From assembly GCA_003116975.1 (NCBI GenBank), contig BGKB01000104.1, forward strand, positions 62,001 through 126,000: a stretch of 64,000 nucleotides of DNA, read 5' to 3'. The position numbers were made by a program, and so were the translations under genes. The stretch's first letter is position 1; the number at the start of each line of letters is the position of its first letter. Positions 24,526 to 46,320 of the stretch are shown here, one piece after another. Below the pieces are notes generated by a model. The model had not been told where the DNA came from. It saw only the letters and a program-made list of their open reading frames with translations, and ran no database searches. The DNA is from Aurantiochytrium sp. KH105. Its lineage: Eukaryota > Sar > Bigyra > Thraustochytrida > Thraustochytriidae.

Positions 24526-27500
24526 ATGCCTCCAACGGTGGTGTCCAGGGCGCAGAGCCATGTCAGCGGTATGACTGGCATGTCAACGGGTGGCGACGCT
24601 GACATGGACAGTGCTTTTCGCCAGCTACGCTCGCAAGGCGGCAATGCATCAAGCATCTTTATTGAACTCGAGGCATTCTTTGAGAAAGCCAAGACCGGGC
24701 TGAATAATCTGCTTCATAGCCTCACGCGTACCTCGAAAGAGACACATCTCATCTTCATGGTAGGCTCACTGATTGAAGCAGGCCAGCTTGCTTCTTTGGC
24801 ACTGCCCGCATCATCGACCATGGACATGAACTACCCAACACCTGTTGCAAAGCTTGCTGAAATCATTGGCTACACTCGATTCGGAGATCTCATGTGGGAG
24901 CACTTTGATCACTTCACCGTAGCCATCGTTATCCAAAGTGTCCTCTTGGTACTTCTCCTTGCTCTCCCCTACATTGCCTACACGTGGGCAAACAAGGAGG
25001 GTAGATCAATTGGAACCAAGCTTTTGCAGTACCAAATGTCAGTTTATGGCGGCATCTTCTTCATCCCGATCATCACCTGCCTTGCAGAAGGGGCATTTTG
25101 CAGCAAATTCGAAGGCAACCAATGCAAGTTTTTCATGCCAATCGCCATCATCGAACTCATCGTGTACATCGTGCTTGTTCTGCTCGTCTCCATTATGTAT
25201 TTTGACTCGAGGCCAGTCTCAAAATCAATGACTTCGCGGCCTCACGCTCGCGTTCATGTACTCAGCGTTTTCATTCGGGCCGTTCTCACCTTGATTTTCG
25301 TCGGGGCCCACAACGTGGAGTCTGGATCGGGCTTAGTCAAGTTCTGGGTTGTAGTTGTGGCGGTTTCATTAACCCTGCTTGGCCTCGGATATACATGGTA
25401 CCAACCGTACTACCACCAGCGCGCCAATGCCATCCGAGCTTTACTCACCATGGCTGCTGCATGGCTTGCCATTTGCTCCATGGTTCATGTCCTCGCTTCT
25501 TCAGTGACGACAACGACGTCGACCTCGGCCACCGGGGAAGAATGTGTCTACACTTCAGACAGTACAGTTACGGTGACCGTATTTGGCGGACTCATTCTCA
25601 TTCTCCCGCTCACATGGGTGGCACTGCACTATCGTCGATACACGCTTCACATGAAGCGGCCAAACCAGTGCGCCAACGTGTTTGAGCTTGAGCTCAAGGG
25701 AAGACTCGAGCTTCAAGGTCTTGGCATCCACCACGTGAGCGACCTCTCCAAAGCGGACAAGGATGTCATGCACGCGCGAGCAATGCGCGTGCACAAGTGG
25801 TACATGGAAGCAGCCTCTCTGTTTCCCCTTTCCGGCACTCTGTTCATGTTCCACGCTCAAATGCTCCTTGCCTTCCTTCCGAAGAAGACGCCCATGGTCC
25901 GTCGCGCTATAGTCATTGCAGCGAAGAGAGGCCTTGCGCCGGACTTTCATGTCATCGTCTACAAGGTTCGAAGGACCTTGGAAGAGACGATCAAGGGCTC
26001 TTCGGACGTCTTGAGCATTGTTCGTTCCGAGGAATATACAACGGAAGCGCTCAAGTATGACAAACGCTGCTCGACACAACTCGTCGACTTCTGGAGCGAA
26101 CTGTCCGAGAAGCGCCCCGACATCAACAAGGTGAGGCGCTTGGCCCTGAACATTGCTGTTTCCTCGGCAGCCGCGCATAAAGCTTATTTGAAGCTCCTGC
26201 GTATCTCACCCAAGTCTTCGCGTGTTTATGACATGGTTTCTTCCTTTCTGCTGGAGATCATGCACGATTCGCGACTGGCGGCGATGATGCGAATGAAGGG
26301 GGGCCGTCTCGCGCGAGAGGCGAGCGTGCGTGCGTCAACCAACTTAAACGAGGCGGAGTCTGACTCCCTTGGTGTCATCGTCGTGCGTGCGTCACTCGAG
26401 AATAGGCATGAGTTGGGCGACATTATCTTTGCAAATGCAAACGCCAGCCAGATCCTCAATCAGGTGAATCAGATGATTGTCGGGCAAAAGATCGACTCAT
26501 TCTTCGTGAGCCCGCTCGCCGAACGTTTCGAGGAGATTGTCGAGAGCTTCATGGAGGACGGAAACGATGAAGCGTTTGAGGACACCATCAACACTTTTCT
26601 GCGTACACCTACCGGAAATGTGGTGGCGGTGAATCTCAAGTTACAGCCCTACGCTCCGGACGATGTGAACTTCAATATCTACATTGTCTTCCAAGCTGAC
26701 ACCTCGCACTCTGGAGAGAATTTCATTGTCGTAAACGAGACGGATGGCATGGTGGAAGGTATGGGAAGCGCTTGCTTTGCGGCATTTCAAAGTCATATTC
26801 TCGCTGCATCGCAGCAGCGACAGTTCCAAAGGATGGGCGGTATGGCCTTTGGAGGCGTCGCAGGCCAAGGCGGCCCGGAGCGCCTTCACGTGTCGACGCT
26901 CATCCCTAACTACTCGATTATCAATCCTCAGCGTCTTGCCTCTGGAATGCCAATTCCTGTAACCTTGCAGGAGGAAGACTCTGGAGTGCACTTGCTCAAG
27001 CGTTTCCGAATCACCTTCGCCAGCGATGAGCCAAATGCTCAGCGACGCGACTCCTGCGAGGGAGGAGCACCCGACGCATCCTCGTCGCGCCCACGACTCG
27101 GCCATCGACCGAGCATCGTGTCCCTGCTCGGCGGCGACGATGTCGAGAGCACGGGACGCGGTTCGTTCTGCATGCCGGGGGCCGCGCCCGAGGCGGCTGT
27201 CCGCCGCGCCAGTACCGCGCCCGGCGCTTCTGATAACGGTGAAAGTGGAGACGCGACCAAGAAGAGATCCTCGGTGATGTTTTCGCCCATGCGAAGAATG
27301 TCATCCATGTACTCGCCACCGGAGCATGTGAAAGGCAAGATTTGGATCCACCATAAGCAAGTTCTTGGCAAACGATACCTTCAAGTCTTCATGCACGACC
27401 CAGAAGTTCCAGAGTTTAACACCGTCGATGAACGTTTTGAAGACCGTGGCGCTATGATGGACGTCGGAGGTCAAAGCGAGTTCGACGATGCGTCGATGGG

Positions 27501-29811
27501 CAACGCCGAGTCAGACTTCGGTACCGATAGCGATGCCAAAGGAAGGAGCGGAGGACCCGGAGGCCCGGTCGGCGGTCTCATTCGCCGCACATTCACGGAC
27601 AAGTCTGAGCACATGCGGCGCTTCATGGAAGAAATGGGCTCCGAAGCAAAGATTGCAACAACTCCACGCGCACGTACGGGAGGTTCCCGTGCAGGATCCA
27701 AAGCAGGTTCAGTGTCTTCTGGGGAGGTTCTCCGGCACAAAGCCCAGGCCGTGCGAAAGACCCTGCAAGAGAGCCAGAATGCAGCCATGGACTCTACCCT
27801 GGCCAAGCTTCGTCGCATGTACCTCCGGGCCTCCATCCTTGTCTGCGTTTGTGCACTTGCACAATACGTCAACAGCACAAACCTTTTGGGGGAATACAGC
27901 AATGATATTCAGCTCGTGGGCTCCCTCGGATTCCGCCGATTCTGCCTCGTCGCCATCGCGTACGCGGCGCACGGCCTGAACCTAATCAATCGCGGGATTC
28001 TCGATGCCTCAGAGGAAAATCATTTACGTTCGGAGCTCGGCATTTTCGGAAATACTTTGAAGAACTCTGATTTTGAGCTTTTCCAGCGAAGGGCGACTGT
28101 CGGAGGCAGCTTGCAGACGACGTACGAGGAGCCATCGTTCGAATACTACTTTCTACGTAATGGTTATGTCATGTCCTCACGAATGAGTCTCTTCGAAGCT
28201 ACGATGAAACTCTCGAGTTCGGCTTTACAGGCTGAACAGGCGGACCTCTCTGAGTTCACGCCAGGATCTGCAACGACCCTTCCGCTCATGGAGAATCTCG
28301 ATTTTTTCAGCAACTCCACATTAACTGGCTTGGAGCAGACCACTGAGCAATTTGCTGATTACGCATTGCAACACTCGACAGTCATTCTTCATCAACTTTT
28401 GGTGATGGCAAGTATCATGCTCTTTGTCACAATCATTCTCGTCGGCGTGGCAATCTACCCGCTTGTGGGTAATGGCGGCAAGATCGAAAAGGTCAAAGGT
28501 GAGATTTTGCAAGTCTTTGCGGATATTCCCAAGAAAACCACGCAAGAAGTTGGACTTCGTTTCGTCGAGCGGCTGAGCGTCATCCATGAAGAAGATGTCG
28601 ACGCCTCGCGACTCAATGGCGAGCACCCTGCTACACGCGGTCACGATGAGCTCCGGGAAGCAGGCATGGACCCACGAACTGCGTCTGGGGCAGCGGGTGG
28701 CATGTTAAGCCACATCACCGACGCGTCGACCCCCCATTCCGATGCGCAGACGCGCGAGCCCAAAAAGGTTGCCAAAGTTGCACCAGAAATTCCGAGCGCA
28801 GATCGCTCGAAACCCAGCTCTCGAGCCAAGAAACAAGGCGGAAGTAGCTCGAAAAGTAAGGACGAGCACAAGACGCGTGCCCCGTGCTGCACGGTGCGCA
28901 AGGCTGTTATCAGTGCAAAAATGAGCTCTTTGCTCTTCCTCGCAATCATCTACTTCGCTTCGGTCGTGCTGCTCACTGCTAAACTTGAATGGGACACCGA
29001 GAGTGCACCAGCAGTGGCAAACTATGCCGGCTATCGACGCATGAAGATGCGATACGTGATGCACGAGTTCCGTCTTTGGCTGACTGGTGCTTTTGAAGGC
29101 GTCGACATGGTCACCATCGACGGCGAACATATTGACTTCCGCAGCGACACCGATCATGTTCGCCATCGTCTTGCGACCTTGCAAGAAATTCACGAGAAAC
29201 TGCTTTACGGCAAGGAAGCCGACCACATTGTGGGCACATTTCGAGACCCCTCGGCGAGCGACGATCTCATGGAACTTTACACCACGAACGGGTGCTTGAA
29301 CCTGCCGTCAACCTCAAATCGGACCGAGGCCGAATGTCTGGCCTTCGACAATGGCCTCATGGCCACTGGTTTGCAAAGCGCTTTCACGAACTTCATCGAC
29401 GCCATGCAAGAGCTTACTTATGACACGGAGATCGAAGCCGCTGCTCATTCAAGAGACGACGCGCTCATTCGCACTATCTTTGAGCGAGATGACGTACAGC
29501 GCCTGATCGAGCTTGAGAAACACTATCTCCAACCGCAATTTTCTACGGTGATTCAAATCGGTGACACCGATCTCGCGGATCGCGTCGCGCATGTCGAGGT
29601 GATGATGCTCATTCTGCTCATTGGGCTCATAGTGTGCGCCTTTTGCATCTACGCTTTTGTTGTACGAGCCATCCTCACGCGCCTTGACACGGAGGTCAAA
29701 CGCACACGAAGTCTTTTGCTCGTGATCCCCGAGGACGTCTTGGATTCACTTCGGCACATTCAGGTCTTCCTCGTCGACTCCTTTGGGACCGGGGGCACAG
29801 GCAAGAAGTAA
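24526..29811 (+). CDS. TmcB-like (tiny macrocysts B) multi-pass PAS-domain protein, copy 2
   Basis: This 1761-residue protein has the same plan as the gene at 16893. N-terminal helices include about 75-95, 130-155, 170-190, 203-225, 243-263, 270-292, 300-325 and 350-372. The VFELELKGRLELQG motif opens the TPR-like region (about 385-600). A PAS domain covers about 620-740 (SLGVIVVRAS... IIFANANASQILN). A Ser/Arg-rich linker follows (about 850-1090). Two ectodomains bounded by membrane helices lie at about 1110-1320 and 1470-1710, the second with MELYTTNGCLNLP, and the C-terminal VIPEDV motif is kept. N-x-S/T sites in the ectodomains fit extracellular exposure. It probably arose by an inverted duplication with copy 1, long ago given the divergence. 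PAS domains usually sense small molecules, redox state or light; the ligand here is unknown. Confidence 0.87.
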   Translation: MPPTVVSRAQSHVSGMTGMSTGGDADMDSAFRQLRSQGGNASSIFIELEAFFEKAKTGLNNLLHSLTRTSKETHLIFMVGSLIEAGQLASLALPASSTMDMNYPTPVAKLAEIIGYTRFGDLMWEHFDHFTVAIVIQSVLLVLLLALPYIAYTWANKEGRSIGTKLLQYQMSVYGGIFFIPIITCLAEGAFCSKFEGNQCKFFMPIAIIELIVYIVLVLLVSIMYFDSRPVSKSMTSRPHARVHVLSVFIRAVLTLIFVGAHNVESGSGLVKFWVVVVAVSLTLLGLGYTWYQPYYHQRANAIRALLTMAAAWLAICSMVHVLASSVTTTTSTSATGEECVYTSDSTVTVTVFGGLILILPLTWVALHYRRYTLHMKRPNQCANVFELELKGRLELQGLGIHHVSDLSKADKDVMHARAMRVHKWYMEAASLFPLSGTLFMFHAQMLLAFLPKKTPMVRRAIVIAAKRGLAPDFHVIVYKVRRTLEETIKGSSDVLSIVRSEEYTTEALKYDKRCSTQLVDFWSELSEKRPDINKVRRLALNIAVSSAAAHKAYLKLLRISPKSSRVYDMVSSFLLEIMHDSRLAAMMRMKGGRLAREASVRASTNLNEAESDSLGVIVVRASLENRHELGDIIFANANASQILNQVNQMIVGQKIDSFFVSPLAERFEEIVESFMEDGNDEAFEDTINTFLRTPTGNVVAVNLKLQPYAPDDVNFNIYIVFQADTSHSGENFIVVNETDGMVEGMGSACFAAFQSHILAASQQRQFQRMGGMAFGGVAGQGGPERLHVSTLIPNYSIINPQRLASGMPIPVTLQEEDSGVHLLKRFRITFASDEPNAQRRDSCEGGAPDASSSRPRLGHRPSIVSLLGGDDVESTGRGSFCMPGAAPEAAVRRASTAPGASDNGESGDATKKRSSVMFSPMRRMSSMYSPPEHVKGKIWIHHKQVLGKRYLQVFMHDPEVPEFNTVDERFEDRGAMMDVGGQSEFDDASMGNAESDFGTDSDAKGRSGGPGGPVGGLIRRTFTDKSEHMRRFMEEMGSEAKIATTPRARTGGSRAGSKAGSVSSGEVLRHKAQAVRKTLQESQNAAMDSTLAKLRRMYLRASILVCVCALAQYVNSTNLLGEYSNDIQLVGSLGFRRFCLVAIAYAAHGLNLINRGILDASEENHLRSELGIFGNTLKNSDFELFQRRATVGGSLQTTYEEPSFEYYFLRNGYVMSSRMSLFEATMKLSSSALQAEQADLSEFTPGSATTLPLMENLDFFSNSTLTGLEQTTEQFADYALQHSTVILHQLLVMASIMLFVTIILVGVAIYPLVGNGGKIEKVKGEILQVFADIPKKTTQEVGLRFVERLSVIHEEDVDASRLNGEHPATRGHDELREAGMDPRTASGAAGGMLSHITDASTPHSDAQTREPKKVAKVAPEIPSADRSKPSSRAKKQGGSSSKSKDEHKTRAPCCTVRKAVISAKMSSLLFLAIIYFASVVLLTAKLEWDTESAPAVANYAGYRRMKMRYVMHEFRLWLTGAFEGVDMVTIDGEHIDFRSDTDHVRHRLATLQEIHEKLLYGKEADHIVGTFRDPSASDDLMELYTTNGCLNLPSTSNRTEAECLAFDNGLMATGLQSAFTNFIDAMQELTYDTEIEAAAHSRDDALIRTIFERDDVQRLIELEKHYLQPQFSTVIQIGDTDLADRVAHVEVMMLILLIGLIVCAFCIYAFVVRAILTRLDTEVKRTRSLLLVIPEDVLDSLRHIQVFLVDSFGTGGTGKK

Positions 29812-29965: not shown

Positions 29966-32900
29966 TTATTTTAGAAGAAATTCAGTCTGTCGACGCTCCA
30001 GGTGCTGCGGAGAAAGCACTGGCAGGGCGTCAAGATCAAACAAGGAATTGCCAGTTTGGCGCGTGTACGCGAGGAAGTCCTGGGCATCTTCATATGTAAA
30101 GCTACCGCGCTGAATTGTTGCGACCATGTTGCCCTTTCGCGTGCCGCGGAAGACTGTTGCTCGTCGCTCCGTCACGTTGTTGTCCTTGAGATATTTCGCG
30201 AGATGCTCTGAACTCTTGGAGAGTTGTCGAGTCGCCAAGAATTGTTGATCCCGCTCTTCAATGGTCCTCCTGCGACCCTCGCGCGGTTCGACCCAGTCAA
30301 GTCCTTTCTTGGAGCCCGATTTCTGACTGGAGACTGACTTTTCATGGAAGCTGCGCGACGAGGTCGCACCGGAAGTCCCATCCGTGTCCACGTTCTTGAG
30401 GATATTGGTTCCGAGGGGCTTGGCCACCGTCGCAAAGGACTTGCGCGACTTGGGGTTGTGCAGTATGGTGTCGTCTTGAAGCTGCGACTGAATGAGCGTG
30501 TGCTGGATAGAAGTAAGCCTCGGATGCTCCCTCAGCATCTTTGTATTGGGGTTACCGAGAATATTGGCAATGTGACGGGCCGAGAAGCGGCCAAGAGGGG
30601 TCTGCACGCTCCCGGCGATTTCGGCAACCTGACGATGCAGCTCCTTGGATTGTTTCATCGTTCTTCGCTCGGGATGCACAAGCTCAGCAAAGATGCCGAT
30701 GCTTCGGTGCTCAGGAAATTCTACCATGATGCGCTCGAACTCATCTTTGGGGATGAAGGCGAGCTCGCAGGCTTCTGTACATTGGACGGTCATCGTTCGC
30801 TCCCCGCTCAAGGAATATAGGCACTCACCGCCGAAGTGATGTCCCGCACGGAGCGTGTAGGATCCTTTCTTTCGAACGCTCATGTGTGAGGGCATGGTGC
30901 TGAGATTCCTCTGGCTCTGAGAGAGTGCCTTCTCGGTCGAAGTGACCTCAAGTTCCCCAGATCGGATAAAGTAGATGTCGTGACCGATTTCTCCCTCGCG
31001 AAAGACGTATTCTCCCTTGCTACAGATTTGCATTCGCAGCTTGCGCGCGATGTGACGCTGCACGTGAATATGGCATTTGCGTAAGCCGCGAACTTTGTCC
31101 ATAATGTCGTGGTGAATGCACATGGCCAGCTCCAGCTGCAGAGGGAGCGGGAGACCGACAATAACATCGTGCATATCTACTCCTTCAAAGCGCTCCCAGT
31201 GATTCGTAAAATGATCGATGATCTCACGCTGGAGCCCGCCTGGAAGCTCTCGGAATGCCATAAAATCTAAAAGCTTGCGAAGTCGGTTCTTGAAAGAGAT
31301 CTCGCCCCGAGAGTCCCAGTGCAAGAAGACGACTGCGACTGATCCAATTAGCGCTGCGAAAGTGCAGGCCCCGAGAACGACGACAACCAGCTCGTGAATG
31401 GTCTCGACCAAGGTGTATGGGCGAATATCGCCATATCCAACACTCGACATGGTTGTCACAGTGAAGTAAAGGGCACGCAGATAGACGAAGCTTGGATTCA
31501 GATCCTCGTTGAAAATATTGTGAGAGCCAGCAGCCTCTGGATCGTCTGACTCTGTGATGAATTGAGCCAATCCATCGGCGATTGCCCAGGTCTTGTGCAA
31601 ATCCGATTCCACATAGCGATGCAAGATGAACCAGGTGCAAGCTGCCCAGTGATTAAGAAGAAGCATGCCGGTGAAAAGGAAAATGACGGAAATCACGCTG
31701 GAGTTAATTCGCGGGAAGAGTTCGTGAATGTACTTGTCGAGCAGCTTAGAGTAGCCGTGCACACGAAGCAAGCGCAAAAGGTGCAGGAAACGCACTGCTG
31801 AGAGAAGCGTGATGTGCGAATCGTTGTTTCCAGAGAGAAAGGCAGCCCATGCAAAGATGTCGGCAGGAAATGAGGCCGCGAGGTCGTAGAACAGCCACGT
31901 GTTCCAGTAGTGTTCTGCAATGAGCGTCTCATTCGTAATGACTTTTCCGTACCTGTTGATGGCGAATCGCTTGTACCGCATGAAAATGTCAACCATGAAG
32001 AATATGTCGATGCAGTACTCGAAGCCAAACCAAATGATCACACCCCACGTCATCTTGTGATCCATCAATGGCGGACGGCCGTCTGCAAAGAATGCGAAGC
32101 GGAATGGAATGGAGAACGCAAAGTACATAGTGAAGAACAGGGAGGCCATGTTCCAGACGCGGCAAAATGTCTCATTTGGCCTGTAAATCCTGGCTTTTTT
32201 GGCAGCCGCTTTCTGGCGCTTCTTGCGCATTCGCGATTCGCTTACAAGGTGGTGTGAGAGCTTTGGGACGGGTTTGCCATCCACACCGTACTTTTTATTC
32301 GCCATCGCCGGAGTCGGCCCGGCTGAGCGGAGGCTCGAATGCATGAGAGACTTGTAAAGCGTGCTGCCAAAGCCATTTGTGCGGTTTGACGGGCTCATAG
32401 GCGGTGACTTTGGAGATTTGGGGGACTTTGGGGTTGTCGGTGCAGACCCTGCGCCAGCTGCGTATACTCTGGAGCCTGATGTTATACCGAGGGGCCCTGT
32501 CTTGAGAAAGGACGCCCGCTTGGTCAGCATTCGTCGCCCGTAATCGAGAATGGAGCCTGCAGAGAATGAAGGTCGCTTCTCGGACATAAAGTCGAGCATC
32601 TTGGATCCGGCAATAATGGCCTCCATATTCGTGCGAAGATTGTCATTGCGAAGCTGATTGTTCTCGCGCAGCTCGGAGACGACGCTAAACATACGATCAG
32701 CCTGGTGCGGATAGCGGAGCAGAACCTCATCCAGATCCTCTCGGTGCAAGGCAAAAAGCTCGGTGAAGTCCACTGCTCGCGCGGAGCAGCTGCGACGCTC
32801 GTTGAAGAACACTGCAGTCTCGCCAAAGTAGGCACCGGCGTCGAGGCTTGCGAGAACAATGATCTCTTCCTCGCCGATCTGACCCTCCATGGCAATTAGA

Positions 32901-35900
32901 CTGGCGCGCTTCGTGCTGTTCGCCCCACTCCGCAAAGAAGATAGGGACGGCTGCTTGACGACGCCGATGCCTGGACCTCCGACTGGCGACTGGGACCCGT
33001 TCGACTTGATCCGTTCGGATAGAATTCTGCTGTTAAGCGAACGGTTGCTCTGGTTAACGCCGCCCGGGCTACCAGGGTCAACGGCGACACTGCTGGCACG
33101 ATGACCACTTCGCCAATTGCCTCGAAAGGATACCATCTCAACAGTGCCTTGCTCGATAAAGTACATTTCAGTACCGACGTCACCCTCGTAGATGATAAAG
33201 TCATGCGGCGAATACACTTCGGACTTGAGTTTTGCGGCAATTCCTTTGGAAAGGGCGGTGTCGCAAAATTCAAAAAAGGGTGTGTGAATCACGAACTTCA
33301 ACTTGAGGTAGTTGGAGACCTCGGCTCGCAAGGTGGTGGGCATTTGGTCGACCAAGTTTGCCTGGACAGCATCTTTTTCGGTCTCCCACAGATACTCGAG
33401 ATAATTGCGCGTGCGCTGCTGCAGGGATTGCGGGACCTGGTACATGTAGAGGAAACGTTCGAATGTGTCCATCTTCTCACGATATTTGGCGGCACTGCCC
33501 TCAAGGTTGGCCACCAGGTTGGCAATACTGCCGATAATTGCAGCATTGATAGTCACTCCAATGATGATCATGATGGTCACATACAAGGTGCCAGGGATAT
33601 CGACTGGAATCGTGTCCCCAATAACAACGACAACGAGCGTGGGGAGGGCCCAGTTCATCGCACGAAGGTACCGATGGTCCAGCGATCCACCGTCGAGCGG
33701 CAGCAAGCCCATTTCCATTTGATTTTGGATCCAGGTCTGATTCCAGCGACAGTGGGCCTCGAACGTGGCACCGCAGGTCAAGTCAGAATTGGTCAGCTGT
33801 GGCCAATTGTCCTTCATTGTAAAGAAAGTTTCCTCAGGGCAGCTATCCGCTGAGTATTTGATGATGTCATCGTTGCCAAGGTCGGCTGTTAGGCGATCCA
33901 CACATTCCGCAATGGCGTCATCATCGGACTGTTCGTAGTAAGCAATGGCGTAAAAGAAGCAGCCAGTCCAGTGCGAGATGGCAATCACTGCGACGACGAG
34001 TAGAAAGAGCCGATACATGGCTCCGTAGTCACGGAAGCGAGACATGCTGAAAAGTGTGTCGAGGTTTGCCTTCAATTTCGGAACGCGCAGCACGAGCAAG
34101 AGCTTAGGGATTCGACAGCATGCCATTGCGAGCGCGAGATTCCGCGTAAAGTCTTCCGACTCAGGATTGATGAAAAGTGAAATCAGAGCCAATACATCAA
34201 ACGGAAGTGTTGTGAGCACGTCTCGTCGCAGAACCCCGCTCCGAAAGTAGCTGGAGCGAATATCATCCCTGTCAGTGAAAACCTGGCCGCCGTCGAGGAA
34301 GCCAAAGTACTTGTACCGGCAATAGACATCAATGGCGAGGAAAACATCGAGCGTGTAATCGACCGCGAAGAGGGTGAGGCCAGCATTCAGCGCGAGACGA
34401 ACAGGGACGGTCGCAAAGTTGTACAGGATGGCCAGGAGGATGGCCACGTCCCATGCGCGGCGCAACCCGGACTCTGGATGTCTCCACGATGTCTCTGGCA
34501 CAGTCTTGCGCTCCTCGTACTCGTAACTTGTAATGACAGCCAGTTTGGAGTAGCGATCCATGTTCTCAATAATTGCGGCGTTCTTGAGCCGCTTTTCTTG
34601 CAGAGTTGCGCGCAGACGCATGAGCACAAGTTCTCGCTGCTGGGGAAATTCACGCGTGACGCGGTCAAAGTCCTCCTTGTTAAGCACGAAACAGTCGCAG
34701 TAGCCAATTGCGATGACATTGGCGGTGCGCTTCTCGAGGCCAAGAAGCGATCCTTCTCCAAAGTAGTCGCCCGGTGTGAGCACAGCGTAGGTCAGCTTGC
34801 CATTTGCCGAAGTGACGCGCGTGGCCCCCTTTTCAAGCAGGAACATGTCCTGACCGAGCTCTCCAGCCGTGATGATAAAGTCCCCCGGGAGAAAGACGGC
34901 AGGTTGAAGCACACTGAGCAAGTGGCGGAGAAGCTCCTGGTCGATGTCCTGCAGAAAGGTGATGTTTCGCATGATGGAGCCGTTGATATACTCTTGGACC
35001 TCCATCCGCAAGGAGTTGGGCAAGTCGTGAAGAATAGAGTCTTCGTCGACGCCACGCTGGCGTGACCAAAGGTAGTCGTAGTAGCGCATGATTCTAACTC
35101 GCAGGGGGCGCGGAAACTTTTTCACGGCCATGTACTGCGTTAGCACGGCGAGCTTGTTCTGGAACTCCGTACGTGCCGTGTCGAGACTCGAAATCAGTGC
35201 GGCCATGGCACCTACTACTGCAGGATATCCGAGGCCTCCAATGAAGGTAATGAAGGCCACGTATGCAGTCTCACGCGTGTTGTAGGGTACCAAGTCGCCG
35301 TACCCCACGGTGGTCATATCTACGAGGACAAAGTAGATGGCGCGCAGGTAGGTAACGCCCGGCTGCGTGTGGTCAATATTTGCCCAATTTGCATGATCTT
35401 TGCAAACCCAGTCATCATCAGTTTGTGCGCAGTTGGAACGGTCGAGATATGCATGTCTCTCGTCCTTTCTGAGACCTCCATGGTGCCAAGATATGAGAGA
35501 CATGACCATCCATCCGCAGCCCACCACGTGCACACACCAGATGACCCAGAAAAAGATTTTGACAATCCGATGCAGGCCGTTGGAGAGCGTAATACGCCGC
35601 GCGGCCATGTAGGTTTGCGCGGTGTCATAATGGCTCATCAGGTACTCGATGCGCAAAATCTTGTTGAGCCGCAAGATAGGAAGCCATGTCACTTCGTAGA
35701 CGGCAATTAGGTCAAGCGGCATGATAACAATGAGATCGGTGATCCATGGTTCGATGCGCTTGTACCTCTGGAAGATGCGCTCGCCGTCGCGAACGACAAC
35801 GCCCTCTTGCACAAAGCCAAAGAAGCGGGCGCGAAAGATGACGTCGATGATAAAGAAACAGTCGAGGAACCAGTCGACAACAAAGTGCCCCGGTCGCACG

Positions 35901-37660
35901 TCACCAGAGAAAAGATACGTCTGCGTTGCCAGGCGATACGGCCCGATCATGGACATGTATGCAACACTAAAGAAGTTGAGAGCATTCCAGATCTCGCGGA
36001 AGCGGGATCTTGGCTCGAGAATGTCGCGCCAGGACTTCGACTTTGCGGTATTTGTGTCGAGACCAAAAAACTTCTTCACCTTGGCGCTCCGTTTGGCGGC
36101 CTTTTCTGCTGCCATTCGGATCTCTTCAAATTCTTCCTCCTCGAGCGACTCGGCCATGATGTCCTCGAAAAGCTCTTTCTTCAAGAAAAAGAATTCGCAG
36201 TAACTCTTGGCGCGGATGGAGTTCTCAAAATTTCCCGGAAAGAAGAGTGCCATCTCTCCCATAAAGCTGCCTAGCTTGCCGCTCAACTGCGCGAGCACTG
36301 CGCCCCCGGGTGAGATAATCTCGGCCTCGCCGCGGCGTAGCCAGTAGCACCCGGGCATGTTCTGACCTGCTCGCGCCACGTAGTCTCCTGGTGACACGAT
36401 GACCTGTTCAAGTGCCACGCAAATGGAGTTGATGACGGGATCTCGTAACTTGCGCAAAAAGTGAACTTGTGTGACCAGGTCCTTGGACCGCAATCCAGCG
36501 ACCTGGAGCTGCAGCGTAATGGGAAGGTCGCGCAAGAACTTTGCCTCGTTGACACCTTTAAGACTCGTCCACATGTATGTGTAGTAGGCACGAATACGGT
36601 CACGTAGGTCTGTCGACAGGTGCCGATATGCCATGTACTTGTTCATGTTGTCCATTTTGGTATGGAATTCATCCTCGTCGGCATCGAGGTTAGCGACCAT
36701 GTTTGTCAAGTTGCCAATCACCAAGCAGGTAAGCGTCATGCCTGTATACATGGTAATGAGTGTAAACGAAGTTTCCACCCCGGAGTTCGAGTCGGGAACA
36801 ACGTCGCCAAGGCCCACAGTGACCATGGTGATGATTGCCCAGTAGATGCTTCGAATATAAGCATGGATTGTGGGTCTATCGAGATCAACGCTTGATGTTG
36901 TATCGTTGTAGTGCAAGAGCCCGTCGGCTTGAGCCCAGCTCTGATGGGGTTCCTGGCGCACCGCTGAGAACGCCACTGCAAAAAAACCGCATGCAAACCA
37001 GTGCGCAAAGAAGAAAAAGACTGCCCACAGCAGGATCATGCGACGCATACCTGCATTGACAATGAGTCGTCTTCTCTCGAGCATGAGAAAGATGACGTTC
37101 GATTGTTCCTCGACGTGCAAAAGGCGCAGGAACTTGATTAGACGAAGCGCAAGAGCAATGTCCTTGTTGGCATCAGGATTCGCGGCGTACACAATGTAGT
37201 CAAGAGGCATCGCACAGATGATGTTCGTGACCAGAAAGATCAAGTTTGAGACCTTCCTTCGATACTGTTCGTGACTGGTCATGCGCTCTTCGCGCTGTCG
37301 CTCGTGCGTGGAGCTTAGGACAAGCTCAGCTTCGGGCATGACGATGGAGCTCAGTCTTGGGTCGAATTTCGAGCGAAAAATAAATCGCTGCATCAATAGG
37401 TCAAGGATCAGAAGCAAATCTGCTGCGATGTCGCCAACCAGAAAGAGATAGAGAAGGAAGTCGTACTCGGCTTGCTTCTCTGCACTCGCATTGCGAAAGG
37501 CTTCATCGTCTTGTGAGACGCTCCCGTATCCCGGAAAAAATGATAGTCGAAAGGGCACCATAAAGCAGTTCCATGAGAGGGCGAGAATTTGTAGACCTTC
37601 CCACGTTGGCCTTGAGGGTGCATAGCGATGCAGCAGCGCAAGTAGTTTGCGTTTCGCCAT
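29966..37660 (-). CDS. Four-repeat (pseudotetrameric) cyclic-nucleotide-type channel
   Basis: One 2564-residue chain holds four complete channel units, each with six membrane helices, an S4 with spaced Arg/Lys, a pore loop, a C-linker and a cyclic-nucleotide-binding domain (CNBD). The pore filters read V-G-L-G-D (282-286), V-G-Y-G-D (785-789), V-V-I-G-D (1345-1349) and V-G-Y-G-D (2074-2078). The CNBD ligand cassettes lie at E469, E969, E1614 and E2279. Units 2 to 4 keep the phosphate-binding arginine (R978-T-A, R1623-S-C, R2288-T-M); unit 1 has lost it (F478-E-N). The plan matches the sea-urchin sperm CNGK channel, where one chain forms the whole pore. A Ser/Pro-rich linker with TPKSPKSPKSPP lies between units 3 and 4, and a Ser/Lys-rich tail follows about 2330. 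It should sit in a plasma or ciliary membrane and pass K+ or mixed cations when cyclic nucleotides bind; selectivity is uncertain because unit 3's filter is altered. Confidence 0.92.
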   Translation of the reverse strand: MAKRKLLALLHRYAPSRPTWEGLQILALSWNCFMVPFRLSFFPGYGSVSQDDEAFRNASAEKQAEYDFLLYLFLVGDIAADLLLILDLLMQRFIFRSKFDPRLSSIVMPEAELVLSSTHERQREERMTSHEQYRRKVSNLIFLVTNIICAMPLDYIVYAANPDANKDIALALRLIKFLRLLHVEEQSNVIFLMLERRRLIVNAGMRRMILLWAVFFFFAHWFACGFFAVAFSAVRQEPHQSWAQADGLLHYNDTTSSVDLDRPTIHAYIRSIYWAIITMVTVGLGDVVPDSNSGVETSFTLITMYTGMTLTCLVIGNLTNMVANLDADEDEFHTKMDNMNKYMAYRHLSTDLRDRIRAYYTYMWTSLKGVNEAKFLRDLPITLQLQVAGLRSKDLVTQVHFLRKLRDPVINSICVALEQVIVSPGDYVARAGQNMPGCYWLRRGEAEIISPGGAVLAQLSGKLGSFMGEMALFFPGNFENSIRAKSYCEFFFLKKELFEDIMAESLEEEEFEEIRMAAEKAAKRSAKVKKFFGLDTNTAKSKSWRDILEPRSRFREIWNALNFFSVAYMSMIGPYRLATQTYLFSGDVRPGHFVVDWFLDCFFIIDVIFRARFFGFVQEGVVVRDGERIFQRYKRIEPWITDLIVIMPLDLIAVYEVTWLPILRLNKILRIEYLMSHYDTAQTYMAARRITLSNGLHRIVKIFFWVIWCVHVVGCGWMVMSLISWHHGGLRKDERHAYLDRSNCAQTDDDWVCKDHANWANIDHTQPGVTYLRAIYFVLVDMTTVGYGDLVPYNTRETAYVAFITFIGGLGYPAVVGAMAALISSLDTARTEFQNKLAVLTQYMAVKKFPRPLRVRIMRYYDYLWSRQRGVDEDSILHDLPNSLRMEVQEYINGSIMRNITFLQDIDQELLRHLLSVLQPAVFLPGDFIITAGELGQDMFLLEKGATRVTSANGKLTYAVLTPGDYFGEGSLLGLEKRTANVIAIGYCDCFVLNKEDFDRVTREFPQQRELVLMRLRATLQEKRLKNAAIIENMDRYSKLAVITSYEYEERKTVPETSWRHPESGLRRAWDVAILLAILYNFATVPVRLALNAGLTLFAVDYTLDVFLAIDVYCRYKYFGFLDGGQVFTDRDDIRSSYFRSGVLRRDVLTTLPFDVLALISLFINPESEDFTRNLALAMACCRIPKLLLVLRVPKLKANLDTLFSMSRFRDYGAMYRLFLLVVAVIAISHWTGCFFYAIAYYEQSDDDAIAECVDRLTADLGNDDIIKYSADSCPEETFFTMKDNWPQLTNSDLTCGATFEAHCRWNQTWIQNQMEMGLLPLDGGSLDHRYLRAMNWALPTLVVVVIGDTIPVDIPGTLYVTIMIIIGVTINAAIIGSIANLVANLEGSAAKYREKMDTFERFLYMYQVPQSLQQRTRNYLEYLWETEKDAVQANLVDQMPTTLRAEVSNYLKLKFVIHTPFFEFCDTALSKGIAAKLKSEVYSPHDFIIYEGDVGTEMYFIEQGTVEMVSFRGNWRSGHRASSVAVDPGSPGGVNQSNRSLNSRILSERIKSNGSQSPVGGPGIGVVKQPSLSSLRSGANSTKRASLIAMEGQIGEEEIIVLASLDAGAYFGETAVFFNERRSCSARAVDFTELFALHREDLDEVLLRYPHQADRMFSVVSELRENNQLRNDNLRTNMEAIIAGSKMLDFMSEKRPSFSAGSILDYGRRMLTKRASFLKTGPLGITSGSRVYAAGAGSAPTTPKSPKSPKSPPMSPSNRTNGFGSTLYKSLMHSSLRSAGPTPAMANKKYGVDGKPVPKLSHHLVSESRMRKKRQKAAAKKARIYRPNETFCRVWNMASLFFTMYFAFSIPFRFAFFADGRPPLMDHKMTWGVIIWFGFEYCIDIFFMVDIFMRYKRFAINRYGKVITNETLIAEHYWNTWLFYDLAASFPADIFAWAAFLSGNNDSHITLLSAVRFLHLLRLLRVHGYSKLLDKYIHELFPRINSSVISVIFLFTGMLLLNHWAACTWFILHRYVESDLHKTWAIADGLAQFITESDDPEAAGSHNIFNEDLNPSFVYLRALYFTVTTMSSVGYGDIRPYTLVETIHELVVVVLGACTFAALIGSVAVVFLHWDSRGEISFKNRLRKLLDFMAFRELPGGLQREIIDHFTNHWERFEGVDMHDVIVGLPLPLQLELAMCIHHDIMDKVRGLRKCHIHVQRHIARKLRMQICSKGEYVFREGEIGHDIYFIRSGELEVTSTEKALSQSQRNLSTMPSHMSVRKKGSYTLRAGHHFGGECLYSLSGERTMTVQCTEACELAFIPKDEFERIMVEFPEHRSIGIFAELVHPERRTMKQSKELHRQVAEIAGSVQTPLGRFSARHIANILGNPNTKMLREHPRLTSIQHTLIQSQLQDDTILHNPKSRKSFATVAKPLGTNILKNVDTDGTSGATSSRSFHEKSVSSQKSGSKKGLDWVEPREGRRRTIEERDQQFLATRQLSKSSEHLAKYLKDNNVTERRATVFRGTRKGNMVATIQRGSFTYEDAQDFLAYTRQTGNSLFDLDALPVLSPQHLERRQTEFLLK

Positions 37661-39712
37661 ATTTTAGTGTTTGTGAAAGCGAAAATGCAAATGTGTATTG
37701 GTCTGCAATGCGCAGGCCTGGCAAGGCCACTATACTTTGTAGAGCGGCGGCTGCCGCTTCGACTGCACCAAGGCCAGAGCCAACGAGCAAAGTAAGGCCG
37801 GTTGTGCACGCTGCCTTTTCTGTACTCAACGTTTTTACGTAGCAGCACGAGCTCTAGCACGAGCTCTCGCACCAGCACCAGCACCAGCGCCAGCGCCAGG
37901 ACGAGCAGTCAGCTGGTCAGTTGGTTGGCTGGTCGGTCGCAGACTGAGCGACAAGCTTGCACACAAAGCTTTGCGCACAAAGCTTGCGGGTAAGAGGTGG
38001 GTAGGGTCGGCCCCGCGTCCTCCCTCGAGAGGCGAGCACGACTCGTCTTTTGCTGCAGCCTCGAGCTCCGCTACCTCGGGCCAGCGTGCCGCCACGCCCC
38101 GCCTCAAGGGCGCCGCGCTCTTGCTTATTGACTTGCCTGCTCGCTCGCGCTCTTCGTAGTTGCAAAGTCCTCGTGGCAGCTCCAGCAACCGCCGCCAAAG
38201 TACCGTTGAGAGGAGCACAGACTCTGTGACCCGGCGCGCACACATACACACCTTGCTTGTGGTGGCGGTGGTGGTGACCGGTGACGTGACATGGCGTGGC
38301 TCGGCATGCACGGCTCGGCACATCGCACGGTACGGCACCGCGCGCACGTTTTATGTACGTAGGTATGCGTATACGTACAGCACGGTATCGGCACGGCATC
38401 GTGGCAAAAGTGGGGGCCAAGCTCAGCACGTCATCCGCTCGCACGTTGTGCGGTCGGGGCTCCGTGGGAACGACGCCTACTGTGCTGGGGCCATCGACAT
38501 GCGATGGCTGAGAACGACGTCGTGTTAAGCGACGAGGCGCGAGGGAGGGGCTTGGAACAGAGCACCCCGTCCTCTTGCTTCGCCATCCCATGGCACTTCC
38601 GAAACGGGGGTTGGGCGCGGCGGCCAATAACCCTGGACTTCTGAAATGAAAGACCGTTTCTACGGGGCATACTACCAGTCATGACAAGCTGCTTCCAAAG
38701 CAGAGCTGGGCCAGGCAGGCTCACCTGCTAGCAGTAGTATAAGTAACCTGTAGCTACCATCGCAACCAAGTCAAGGAAACGGGGAAAGGAGGAAGGAAAG
38801 GACGCGTCGCTAGGCTTTCGACTTGTAAGTAAGGAGCAGCCACAGCCAAGACCTGATCATGGCTGACTGAATGACTGACTGATCGACTGATTTTAAGGTA
38901 TATACCCCCGACCGGAGTCTCGCAGCCCCGTTGTTGAAAAAAGGGAAAACAACCTGGGTGTCAACGTTCCATTTCGAGGGTTGCGCGACATCATTCCGTG
39001 GTACGTAGCCAGCCGCCGGTGTTGTGCCTGTTGACAACTTAGTTTGGAGGTGAGCAGTAAGGCTAGATAGAGGCCTTCGATTGCCCACCCCGTCGAAGCA
39101 TTTCTTTTCTTTGGGAACACAAGCACTGGGGGCCCCCAAAATTGGCCATGGGTGCTCCTGAGCAAGAAGTGCCGATAAATGCGCCGATGTCCGTCTGCCT
39201 GCCTGTCTCCATGCCTTGCCTACCTTTTAAACTCCGCACACGAGTCATGAGAGTGGCTGCTGAACAAGTGGCACTGCAGCAGGTTGCCGTAACGGCCTCG
39301 AGTAATGTAGACAATTTTGTTGACTCTTGGCTAAAGGACTTTAACGTAGACTCGAGCGTAGACACACGCTTCGCCGGATCCTCGCTCGCTCAAAGCGCCA
39401 AGCCCAAGTCAGGTCGAGCGCGGCGACAGCGCGACGCGCAACGTACGTCGGCACGGGGCCCCGGGGCCGGCTAGTCTAAGGACACTTGAGAAAGGCACGA
39501 CTGCGACTGCCCTGGTCGCGCATAGGCGAACGAGCGGGCCAGCGAGTGAATCGACCCGAGGCGCACGACGCTGCGAACACAACTTCACTTGCTGACCAAC
39601 TTTCGGGCGCACGACGCAGCACGACGCGACGCGACGAAGATTCGACGCGACGCGTGCAGGTAGGCCGGTTTAGCTCGTAGCAGAGCACGCATTGTCTCAG
39701 GATAACAAGAAG
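37661..39712. other. Divergent spacer between the channel and TSG101 genes
   Basis: About 2 kb with no supportable gene. It should hold both promoters. GC-rich CAG/GCAC repeats occur at 37850-37905, and CTGA-rich sequence at 38860-38890. Frames of up to 236 codons are low-complexity. A non-repetitive patch at about 38900-39170 has no clear identity. Confidence 0.55.
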
Positions 39713-41152
39713 ATGTACCCGCAAATGCAGCAGATGAGGCGGCAGCAGCAGCAGCAGTCGTCGCCACTCGCGCATCAAGTGGGCGGCAGTTCCGTGGAAA
39801 AGGCCGTGAGGTCGTGCGATGCGTACAAGCCGGAGTACGTTCAGCGTATCGTCAGGGATATCAACGACATTCAGGGCGCAGCCTCTCTCGAGGCGAAGGC
39901 TGCGGAGCACTTTAGCGACTTTGGCGAGCGGAACCTTCTCGTGGAACTCGAAGGTACCGTGCCAATCAACTATCAAAGCAACCGGTACAACATCCCCATG
40001 CGGATATGGATCTCAAAGTCCTATCCGGAATCGGCCCCGCTTGTTTACGTGACGCCGAAGCCCGGAATGCACATTGTGGACGGCCACAAGCACGTGAACC
40101 GCGACGACGGGCTTGTGTCGCATCACTACCTTCAGGAATGGCAGGCTTCGAGATCGAACCTCGCGGGTCTTTTGAATGCGTGCAAGACTATGTTCAGTAT
40201 TGCACCTCCTGTGATCTCTTCTGGAGGCGCGAGCCAAGTGCATTCTGCCTCGGCAAGCATGTATCCTACGCACGCACGCCCCCCGGCGACATCGCGATCA
40301 ATGCCTCCACCTCCACCGGCTTATTCGTCATATGCGGGACCAGGATATCCGCGCCCTGCCGCTACTGCTTCTTCGCACGGTTGGCCTGACCAGGCCCCAC
40401 CGACGCCGCCTTATCCTCGCACCTCCACGCCGCCGCCTCCACCTTACCCAGCGAGCGGCGGATCGTCTCGTCCACGGACGCCGACTATGCCCTCGTCTCA
40501 GTCTTCGAGGGCATCTGCCTTGCACGCCACAAGCGAGCAGGAACACTCGCGACTCGACGCGCAACGCCAGTCGGAGCAAAACAGAACTCGGCAGGCCCTT
40601 GAGATCAAGCTTCAGGAAAAGTTCAAAAAGTTTCGTGAGCAAATGAAGACGGAGCTGAGCGACGAGATGAAAATCCAAACCAAGCTGGAAGAAGGTCAGC
40701 GGGTGCTCGAGGAGGGCTTGGGCAAGCTCGAGAAACAAAAGGATGACCTCGAAGCCACGATTCACGAACTGGACCTCAAAGAGACGCAGCTCAAGACATG
40801 GCTCGAACAGTACGGGAACGCAGATGAAGAAGGCAATCCGAACAGTTGCGCTATTGCGCAAATCAACCTCGACGAGGCCATCGTGCCCGCTGACGGTCTT
40901 TCAAGGCAGCTCTTTGATTGCGTCGCAGAGACGAGCGCGATCGACGACACATTATATCACTTGGACCGCGCGCTCTCGAATGACATCATTAAACTCCCAG
41001 ACTTTCTCAAGGAGGTTCGCAAGCTTGCACGCAAACAATTCATGGCCAAGGCCCTTGCTCTTAAGATTCAAGAGCACCAGCAGAAAATGCACATGCAGAC
41101 GCGCCAGGTTCCCTCATTGAACTCTCGTCCGCCGCCGTACCGGCCATCCTGA
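39713..41152 (+). CDS. TSG101: TSG101/Vps23-like ESCRT-I subunit
   Basis: The 479-residue protein has the three-part plan of ESCRT-I subunit TSG101 (yeast Vps23). A ubiquitin E2 variant (UEV) domain covers about 30-165 (RYNIPMRIWISKSYPESAP, MHIVDGHKHVNRDDGLVSHH); like other UEVs it lacks a catalytic cysteine at the E2 position and would bind ubiquitin and PTAP-type motifs. A Pro/Ser/Tyr-rich linker spans about 170-262, a coiled coil about 270-375, and the C-terminal steadiness box about 395-470 (TLYHLDRALSNDIIKLPDFL, ARKQFMAKALALKIQ). It acts on endosomes, sorting ubiquitinated cargo into multivesicular bodies. The N-terminus has a short glutamine run from CAG repeats. I start at the ATG at 39713; upstream codons in frame have no ATG. 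Confidence 0.93.
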   Translation: MYPQMQQMRRQQQQQSSPLAHQVGGSSVEKAVRSCDAYKPEYVQRIVRDINDIQGAASLEAKAAEHFSDFGERNLLVELEGTVPINYQSNRYNIPMRIWISKSYPESAPLVYVTPKPGMHIVDGHKHVNRDDGLVSHHYLQEWQASRSNLAGLLNACKTMFSIAPPVISSGGASQVHSASASMYPTHARPPATSRSMPPPPPAYSSYAGPGYPRPAATASSHGWPDQAPPTPPYPRTSTPPPPPYPASGGSSRPRTPTMPSSQSSRASALHATSEQEHSRLDAQRQSEQNRTRQALEIKLQEKFKKFREQMKTELSDEMKIQTKLEEGQRVLEEGLGKLEKQKDDLEATIHELDLKETQLKTWLEQYGNADEEGNPNSCAIAQINLDEAIVPADGLSRQLFDCVAETSAIDDTLYHLDRALSNDIIKLPDFLKEVRKLARKQFMAKALALKIQEHQQKMHMQTRQVPSLNSRPPPYRPS

Positions 41153-45765: not shown

Positions 45766-46320
45766 CGCGGCCCCGCGCGCGCGAACCCGGCTTCTACGTC
45801 TGTCTGCACGCACTCGCTCTCCGGGCGTATCTTCGCGCCTGCCTGCCTGCCCGCCCGCCCCCCCCCGCCAGGAGAAAACGGGTTCCGCAGGGCGCAGGCG
45901 CGGGCAAAGAGACCTAAGGGGCGGCCCCGGGATAGGCCGCTTGGGCCTCTGGCGCGCCGCGCAAGATCGCCGCGTTGTCGCGAGGATCGCATCGCCCGAG
46001 GGAAGAGAGACTGTACAAGAAGTCGAGCAAAGCTATAACAGCAAAGCGAAAAGCGACTAACTGTAAGGTAAAAGCAAAGCAACTTGCTGGTTGAAAAAGC
46101 AAAGCAAAAAGCAAAGCAAAAAGCAAAAAGCAAAGCGAAAAGCAAAGCGGCCACGCAGAGCGGAGCAGGGCAGGGCAGAGCGGGGCGGAGCAGCGGAGAC
46201 GCGAGGCGAGGGCCGCGACCGAGCCCGGGGCGCAGACCGGCTGGCCGCGGTCGAGCCTGCGGTCGGCCCGCGGCCGCCCTGTCTGCTCTGCGCGGAGGAA
46301 GCGGCCTCGCGGCGCCGAGG
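45766..46320. promoter_or_regulatory. Bidirectional promoter region between MIOS and the EF-hand repeat gene
   Basis: Only 555 bases separate the two divergent start codons. The + side carries a long GCAAA-based tract (46025-46149); the - side is CpG- and C-rich (a C9 run near 45861). No TATA box is clear. Confidence 0.45.
46025..46149. repeat. AAAGC/GCAAAA tract in the 5' leader of the EF-hand repeat gene
   Basis: An irregular array of AAAGC, AAAAGC and AAAAAGC units on the sense strand, 170-300 bases before the ATG. A similar tract in the same sense orientation precedes the LTA4H-like gene (59430-59467). Confidence 0.85.

Follow-up and report, generated by a model that had tools for sequence, protein, structure and literature searches.

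A four-repeat CNBD channel with unequal units in one reading frame of a thraustochytrid genome

Four channel units in one constrained frame

The locus analyzed here raises the question of whether a protist encodes a whole four-unit cyclic-nucleotide-type channel in one polypeptide, how such a chain could work, and whether it is the counterpart of the animal CNGK channels or the product of a separate fusion. The window, a stretch of 64,000 nucleotides from Aurantiochytrium sp. KH105, contains in the program-made list of open reading frames (ORFs) an uninterrupted frame of 2564 aa that starts with ATG. Pfam profiles match this frame in four Ion_trans stretches (E 4.4e-54) and five cNMP_binding stretches (E 5.4e-57), the CNBD of unit 3 being split by an insert. 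S4-S6, the C-linker, and the CNBD of each unit align to HCN1, hERG, CNGA3, and SthK; S1 is covered too in alignments to the full-length references, and the tree rows of hERG, CNGA3, and SthK consist of the aligned parts only. A hydropathy scan was less clear-cut: instead of a neat 24, it gave 22 segments above threshold, unevenly spaced, of which some fall in a pore or a CNBD. In every unit, Pfam and the alignments, joined for unit 3 by the model, place the six transmembrane segments (6TM), pore, C-linker, and CNBD of the CNBD-channel superfamily. The focal chain consists of four 6TM-pore-C-linker-CNBD units in one constrained frame, and the preliminary description, which had proposed four full channel-plus-CNBD units in a 2564-residue chain, agrees with the ORF, the Pfam matches, and the unit alignments. 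The parts of the gene are as follows:

29966..37660, minus strand: whole four-repeat CNBD channel ORF, 2564 aa (ORF, Pfam, copy comparison)
36131..37660, minus strand: unit 1 (aa 1-510), with 6TM, pore, C-linker, and CNBD
36803..36820, minus strand: unit 1 selectivity filter TVGLGD
36242..36265, minus strand: unit 1 phosphate-binding cassette, Glu retained, Arg absent
36011..36130, minus strand: junction 1-2 (aa 511-550), 0 nonsynonymous and 3 synonymous differences between copies
34625..36010, minus strand: unit 2 (aa 551-1012)
35294..35311, minus strand: unit 2 selectivity filter TVGYGD
34742..34765, minus strand: unit 2 phosphate-binding cassette, Glu and Arg-Thr retained
32681..34477, minus strand: unit 3 (aa 1062-1660)
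33632..33970, minus strand: unit 3 long, Cys-bearing S5-pore turret, 113 residues from the S5 His to the filter
33614..33631, minus strand: unit 3 non-canonical filter VVVIGD, in both copies
32861..33070, minus strand: unit 3 CNBD insert, about 70 aa, lowest constraint (dN/dS 0.329)
32807..32830, minus strand: unit 3 phosphate-binding cassette, Glu and Arg-Ser retained
30671..32182, minus strand: unit 4 (aa 1827-2330)
31427..31444, minus strand: unit 4 selectivity filter SVGYGD
30815..30838, minus strand: unit 4 phosphate-binding cassette, Gly in place of Glu, Arg-Thr retained
29969..30670, minus strand: C-terminal tail without a Pfam domain (no RGS, unlike two paralogues)

The source assembly (G000; 76 Mb, 367 contigs) carries the window on contig C104, and the gene occurs once more on C113. 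The copies share 98.4% aa identity over 2563 aligned residues and 96.1% DNA identity across a 10-kb stretch including flanks, and the C113 copy has the same frame and all four filters unchanged. The dN/dS ratio between them is 0.063 (200.5 synonymous and 45.5 nonsynonymous differences), so the frame is one constrained coding sequence. Purifying selection is strongest in the TM part of unit 4 (29 synonymous, 0 nonsynonymous differences). By segment, dN/dS reaches 0.172 in junction 3-4, 0.209 in the C-terminal tail, and 0.329 in the unit 3 CNBD insert, and lies between 0 and 0.09 in the others; junctions 1-2 and 2-3, with few sites, show 3 and 2 synonymous differences, respectively, and no nonsynonymous one. 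The four units are 23-28% identical to each other, so they are not a recent tandem copy.

Several other large frames lie in the window. Two large proteins at 24526-29811 (+) and 16893-22073 (-) match TmcB TPR repeats and, weakly, a PAS-like sensor domain; they are likely mutual paralogues. The remaining neighbors are a Vps23/TSG101-type UEV protein (39692-41152, +), a MIOS-like WD40 protein (41539-45813, -), an EF-hand repeat protein (46084-51162, +), a DUF6729 protein (51577-56970, +), and a leukotriene A4 hydrolase-type M1 peptidase (57287-59386, -).

Related channels of the genome and RGS tails

A frame was counted as a channel when the matches listed for it included Ion_trans as well as cNMP, and the genome contains at least four different four-repeat CNBD channels, the focal one included, each in two copies and each in one frame. 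The earlier picture of a single channel thus stands as far as the four-unit chain is concerned and is incomplete in that the genome has at least four such genes, and that the units are unequal. The three paralogues are as follows:

C90/C49: 2859 aa, copies 97.9% identical, dN/dS 0.093
C33/C110: 2562/2560 aa, copies 96.6% identical, dN/dS 0.164
C59/C214: 2360 aa, copies 97.7% identical, dN/dS 0.133

At least seven single-repeat CNBD channels were also found (C217, C106, C185, C54, C293, C264, and C90b), and no two-repeat CNBD channel is among the matches listed from the Ion_trans and cNMP profile searches of the genome. Four and seven are minima, because the match lists are lower bounds; large Ion_trans-only frames (such as C40/C64, C30/C140, and C7/C10) are outside these counts. 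The copy pairs of the four channel genes have dS of 0.08-0.12, more than alleles would usually show; the organism is possibly a hybrid or a diploid that has long been asexual.

The genome is rich in channels of other kinds. Four pairs of frames of 1792-2280 aa (C85/C184, C280/C245, C155/C198, and C255/C78) have four listed Ion_trans stretches each and a Cav/Nav-like size, and 928-981-aa frames with two Ion_trans stretches occur at C77/C143 and C23/C45. Two candidates for further multi-repeat channels were set aside after a reading of their sequences: a protein of more than 1500 aa with several CNBDs, in which no channel part was seen (C65:171200-176500, L029), and a protein on C59 (181800-185500) that has CNBDs and looks like a SulP/STAS-type transporter. 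PfaA-type synthases and giant intron-free frames, of which this genome has examples, are thraustochytrid traits; a pattern search for 18S rRNA had no match. The PfaA-type synthase frames scored 930 bits over model positions 6-1035, below the cut-off of 1010; in the control, the model gave weak matches in 11 of 14 prokaryote genomes, none above cut-off.

Two of the paralogues carry, in frame and at the C-terminal end, an RGS domain above the Pfam cut-off (9.3e-15 and 2.7e-15 in C33/C110; 1.9e-7 and 5.6e-7 in C90/C49), whereas Pfam found none in the focal gene or in C59/C214. The presence of RGS on two paralogues suggests coupling to G-alpha signalling. The genome has 46 G-alpha matches, 27 of them over cut-off, 84 RGS matches, and 37 matches to class III nucleotide cyclases, most of all these in contig pairs. 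In one G-alpha match, at C314:13060-14091 and C245:49750-50781, a TGA stands within the frame in both copies and is perhaps a short intron. Four frames of 480-740 aa (C7/C119, C70/C181, C33:268344/C47:132600, and C10/C81) combine cNMP-binding and RGS matches with no listed Ion_trans, and the channels may have acquired their RGS tails from this recurrent CNBD-RGS pairing. We found no precedent in the open-access literature for an RGS domain combined with a cyclic-nucleotide-type channel.

Unequal units and a proposed gating mechanism

Comparison of the four-repeat channels revealed that the focal units differ in filters, turrets, linkers, and nucleotide contacts. The filters of focal units 1-4 are TVGLGD, TVGYGD, VVVIGD, and SVGYGD; as a correction to the earlier reading, VVVIGD in unit 3 is abnormal for a potassium channel, and unit 1 has GLG. 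The corresponding filters are TVGYGD in all four units of C90; TVGYGD, TVGYGD, TVGFGD, and TIGYGD in C59; and TVGYGG, TTGFGD, AVGFGD, and TIGFGN in C33. All are unchanged in the second copies. Thus, a G-Y/F-G filter is present in 14 of the 16 four-repeat units read, the exceptions being focal units 1 (GLG) and 3 (VIG). From S5 to the filter, focal units 1-4 have 60, 72, 113, and 68 residues, and the 113 residues of unit 3, in whose turret four Cys were read, are the longest such stretch among 23 measured units of the genome (34-83 in the others). In the focal chain, the linkers from a cassette to the next unit measure 92/125/222 aa; the values are 333/140/107 for C90, 364/135/107 for C33, and 194/137/98 for C59.

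Focal units 2 and 3 retain both contact residues of the phosphate-binding cassette, Glu and Arg; unit 2 of C33 does too, on a doubtful alignment. The total is 3 of 16 four-repeat units versus 5 of 7 single-repeat channels, with no more than 1 unit of 12 among the three paralogues. The controls behaved as expected, with both residues in HCN1, CNGA3, and SthK and no Arg in hERG. Judged by the Glu-plus-Arg pair, the CNBDs of units 2 and 3 are of the cyclic-nucleotide-binding kind and those of units 1 and 4 are not.

For unit 3, AlphaFold was given an alignment of 20 rows (the four window units and 16 bacterial channels), and the resulting model has a mean pLDDT of 72.6 and a pTM of 0.48; the initial model from the four window rows was poor (pLDDT 52.3). 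S1-S6, the pore helix, the C-linker helices, and the CNBD strands are present; pLDDT drops below 50 in two stretches, residues 202-245 (turret) and 456-536 (CNBD insert). The top Foldseek match is human CNGA1/B1 (E 5.2e-21, 621 columns), with TM-scores (0.31/0.41) so low that the relative placement of domains in the model is unreliable. The model and this match identify unit 3 as a CNBD-channel unit despite its filter.

We propose that the focal channel is probably a single-chain pseudotetramer of the CNBD (HCN/CNG/KCNH) superfamily, nucleotide-gated via units 2 and 3 and of altered selectivity, and one of at least four specialised four-repeat channels. As in CNGK, the four units of one polypeptide would line one central pore. 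The pore is predicted to pass K+ with altered, probably relaxed, selectivity because the unit filters are GLG, GYG, VIG, and GYG. Binding of a cyclic nucleotide to the CNBDs of units 2 and 3, proposed as the binding sites because they are the sole focal units with both Glu and Arg, would pull the C-linker ring and thereby open the gate, and the CNBDs of units 1 and 4 would be structural. Gating through few sites has a precedent, since in sea urchin CNGK one cGMP bound to the third CNBD is enough for gating, according to extracts of PMC4749565. The chain format may have let units specialise across the four or more four-repeat channels; the three paralogues, in which most nucleotide contacts are lost, would probably respond to voltage, pH, or G proteins.

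The alternative that the chain is a channel-like protein without cyclic-nucleotide gating or conduction, being controlled by voltage or G proteins or having a structural role, is unlikely in our estimation. It draws on VVVIGD in unit 3, since a VIG strand could make the channel non-conducting, and on the loss of one contact in two focal units and of most contacts in the paralogues. Moreover, contact residues are no proof of nucleotide gating, as KCNH channels have a CNBD without such gating. However, both contacts are intact in units 2 and 3, the filter is GYG in units 2 and 4 and GLG in unit 1, and the gene is under strong purifying selection that is maximal in the TM part of unit 4.

Origin of the four-repeat chains

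Extracts of PMC7576140 describe four-repeat CNGK channels in metazoans and choanoflagellates, with a repeat history that joins 1 with 3 and 2 with 4, and two-repeat tandem CNBD channels in oomycetes and dinoflagellates; the broad survey in these extracts did not identify tandem channels in labyrinthulomycetes, phaeophytes, or diatoms. In extracts of PMC4749565, CNGK pores are GYG/GFG and the choanoflagellate Salpingoeca has a CNGK. CNGK appears in extracts of PMC6259924 as four nearly identical, pseudo-symmetric domains with equally short linkers, and asymmetry is assigned to Nav, Cav, and NALCN. Three male-gamete K+ channels of Ectocarpus (a brown alga and stramenopile), called similar to sea-urchin TetraKCNG in the extracted text of PMC3879662, which leaves the repeat number unstated, are the main threat to novelty. 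The known literature also includes PMC8835908 and PMC6660944, again in extract. Among the papers listed in searches of the open-access literature, none was seen to describe a CNBD channel with four repeats from any organism other than animals and choanoflagellates.

Three trees were examined. The second left out C33_u1, C33_u2, C90_u1, C90_u2, and C59_u2, retaining 11 four-repeat units; the third was also without C90_u4 and C33_u4, retaining nine, and included 13 of 61 bacterial loci. Single-unit alignments have little resolution and long branches, and the focal units take no firm position in any tree. Eight groupings were put to the AU test and none is rejected (p 0.0876 to 0.426): in the second tree, p-AU is 0.111 for monophyly of the four focal units and 0.426 for that of the eleven retained four-repeat units, and the focal pairings 1+3, 2+4, and 2+3 have p-AU of 0.204, 0.392, and 0.241, respectively. 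Within the focal chain, the pairing 14|23 is best; its lead over 13|24 is small and carries no significance value. In the third tree, with its bacterial rows, a weakly supported branch (71/85) has all nine retained four-repeat units on the same side.

Some groupings recur. Unit 3 of C90 pairs with unit 3 of C33 (96/70, 96/94, and 100/97 in the first, second, and third trees), as does unit 4 with unit 4 (97/89 and 93/85 in the first and second trees, with a program warning that long branches meet), and unit 4 of C59 joins the latter pair (91/83 and 92/91). The seven single-repeat channels cluster with HCN1 and hERG in the first two trees (82/74 and 81/66) and split in the third into one group with hERG and another with HCN1; none of the seven groups with any four-repeat unit. 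Among the 24 possible unit orders, the identity order comes first in a single gene pair, C90 with C33, and ranks 2, 17, 16, 15, and 3 in the other five; jointly it ranks 243 of 13824, or 4 of 576 excluding the focal gene. A shared unit order, as judged by sequence comparison, is supported for C90/C33, weakly for C59, and not for the focal gene. We infer that C90 and C33 share a four-repeat ancestor, because their units 3 and 4 pair, their order is the best of 24, and both carry RGS.

A motif K-V/L-x-K-L/M-F after the CNBD is seemingly shared, but the pattern was composed after viewing the sequences. Junction scores, for which an anchor was available in 13 of 16 four-repeat units, are mixed, with a mean z of 2.24 between units 3 (6 pairs), 0.36 among all four-repeat units (78 pairs), 0.11 between four-repeat and single-repeat units (91 pairs), and 0.65 among single-repeat channels (21 pairs); the top pair consists of two single-repeat channels. 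No CNGK chain is among the best 60 of 140 Protein Data Bank matches to the focal chain. The best solved structures for unit 2 are CNGA3 (4e-59) and SthK (9e-59), unit 4 is hERG-like in the full-chain structure search, and SthK shares 30-33% identity with units 1, 2, and 4 (314-322 aligned columns). No relative was found on viral contigs.

Most likely, fusion and duplication events independent of the fusion behind animal CNGK would have given rise to the set. That the focal gene is instead a true CNGK orthologue, the fusion either predating the split of animals from this lineage and being lost in most others or having been transferred, seems to us rather improbable. The four-repeat plan is the same, CNGK reaches a choanoflagellate (PMC4749565, extracts), Ectocarpus has its three TetraKCNG-like channels (PMC3879662, extracts), and the CNGK-like pairings 1+3 and 2+4 are unrejected. 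Orthology is at odds with the unequal focal filters, turrets, and linkers, set against the GYG/GFG pores and pseudo-symmetry of CNGK in the extracts of PMC4749565 and PMC6259924, with the survey that lists no tandem channels in labyrinthulomycetes, diatoms, and phaeophytes (PMC7576140, extracts), and with the slight, untested lead of 14|23 over 13|24.

A lower probability still attaches to a fusion of four units from different kinds of single-repeat channels, without unit duplication. The units do differ in their animal relatives, unit 2 being CNG/SthK-like and unit 4 hERG-like, and the trees give no clear clade of all four-repeat units; however, the seven single-repeat channels side with HCN1 and hERG and none with a four-repeat unit, and the nine retained four-repeat units share one side of a branch. 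Finally, a set of separate genes, or tandem channels wrongly joined in the assembly, the condition that the preliminary description had named as fatal to its reading, can be dismissed as very unlikely because C113 carries the same chain on a different contig under the same constraint, three further genes have the same plan, the units are far from identical, and junctions 1-2 and 2-3 are, over their few sites, free of nonsynonymous differences.

Comparison with known systems

A wider reading, to which we lean only tentatively and with slightly less than even confidence, is that the focal channel belongs to an independently fused, non-animal family of single-chain CNBD channels, a counterpart of Nav/Cav within the potassium-channel superfamily. 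Its domains would have become unequal, with a degenerate third filter beside a Cys-bearing turret and nucleotide sites preserved in two of the four, and some members would be tied directly to G proteins by a C-terminal RGS domain. If true, such a four-domain family of potassium type, unequal in filters, turrets, and linkers, would break the symmetry contrast between CNGK and Nav/Cav/NALCN and provide a second natural experiment on the reasons for single-chain channel fusion. With at least four members in this genome, in two copies each, the question is open to trees, recording, and structure. The RGS-tailed members would bear their own G-alpha brake, a possible direct link between receptor and membrane potential in a protist.

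CNGK, or tetraKCNG (sperm of sea urchin, fish, and ascidian; Salpingoeca), is the nearest described plan, as had been proposed at the outset: one polypeptide with four 6TM+CNBD repeats and potassium-type pore motifs, and, in sea urchin, fewer than four functional CNBDs, the third one gating (PMC4749565, extracts). CNGK channels carry a K+ current that cGMP opens or, in zebrafish, pH. The focal chain differs by its GLG and VIG filters, the long Cys-bearing turret of unit 3, and unequal linkers, and its paralogues by RGS. CNGK is set apart in the extracts of PMC4749565 and PMC6259924 by GYG/GFG pores and by near-equal repeats, linkers, and turrets; the focal chain departs from both, and because its units are unequal, we do not file it as CNGK. 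The two-repeat tandem CNBD channels of SAR protists, as the extracted texts describe them, similarly have diverged repeats (30% identity or less) in one chain and, in some dinoflagellates, a partly reduced CNBD, and have two units versus four in the focal chain. Single-repeat CNG/HCN/KCNH channels and bacterial SthK have the same unit anatomy, whereas the four focal units are covalently joined. Nav, Cav, and NALCN have no CNBD and other filters. Like the focal channel, they are one chain of four domains that diverged in filter, turrets, and linkers; unlike them, each focal unit carries a C-linker and a CNBD.
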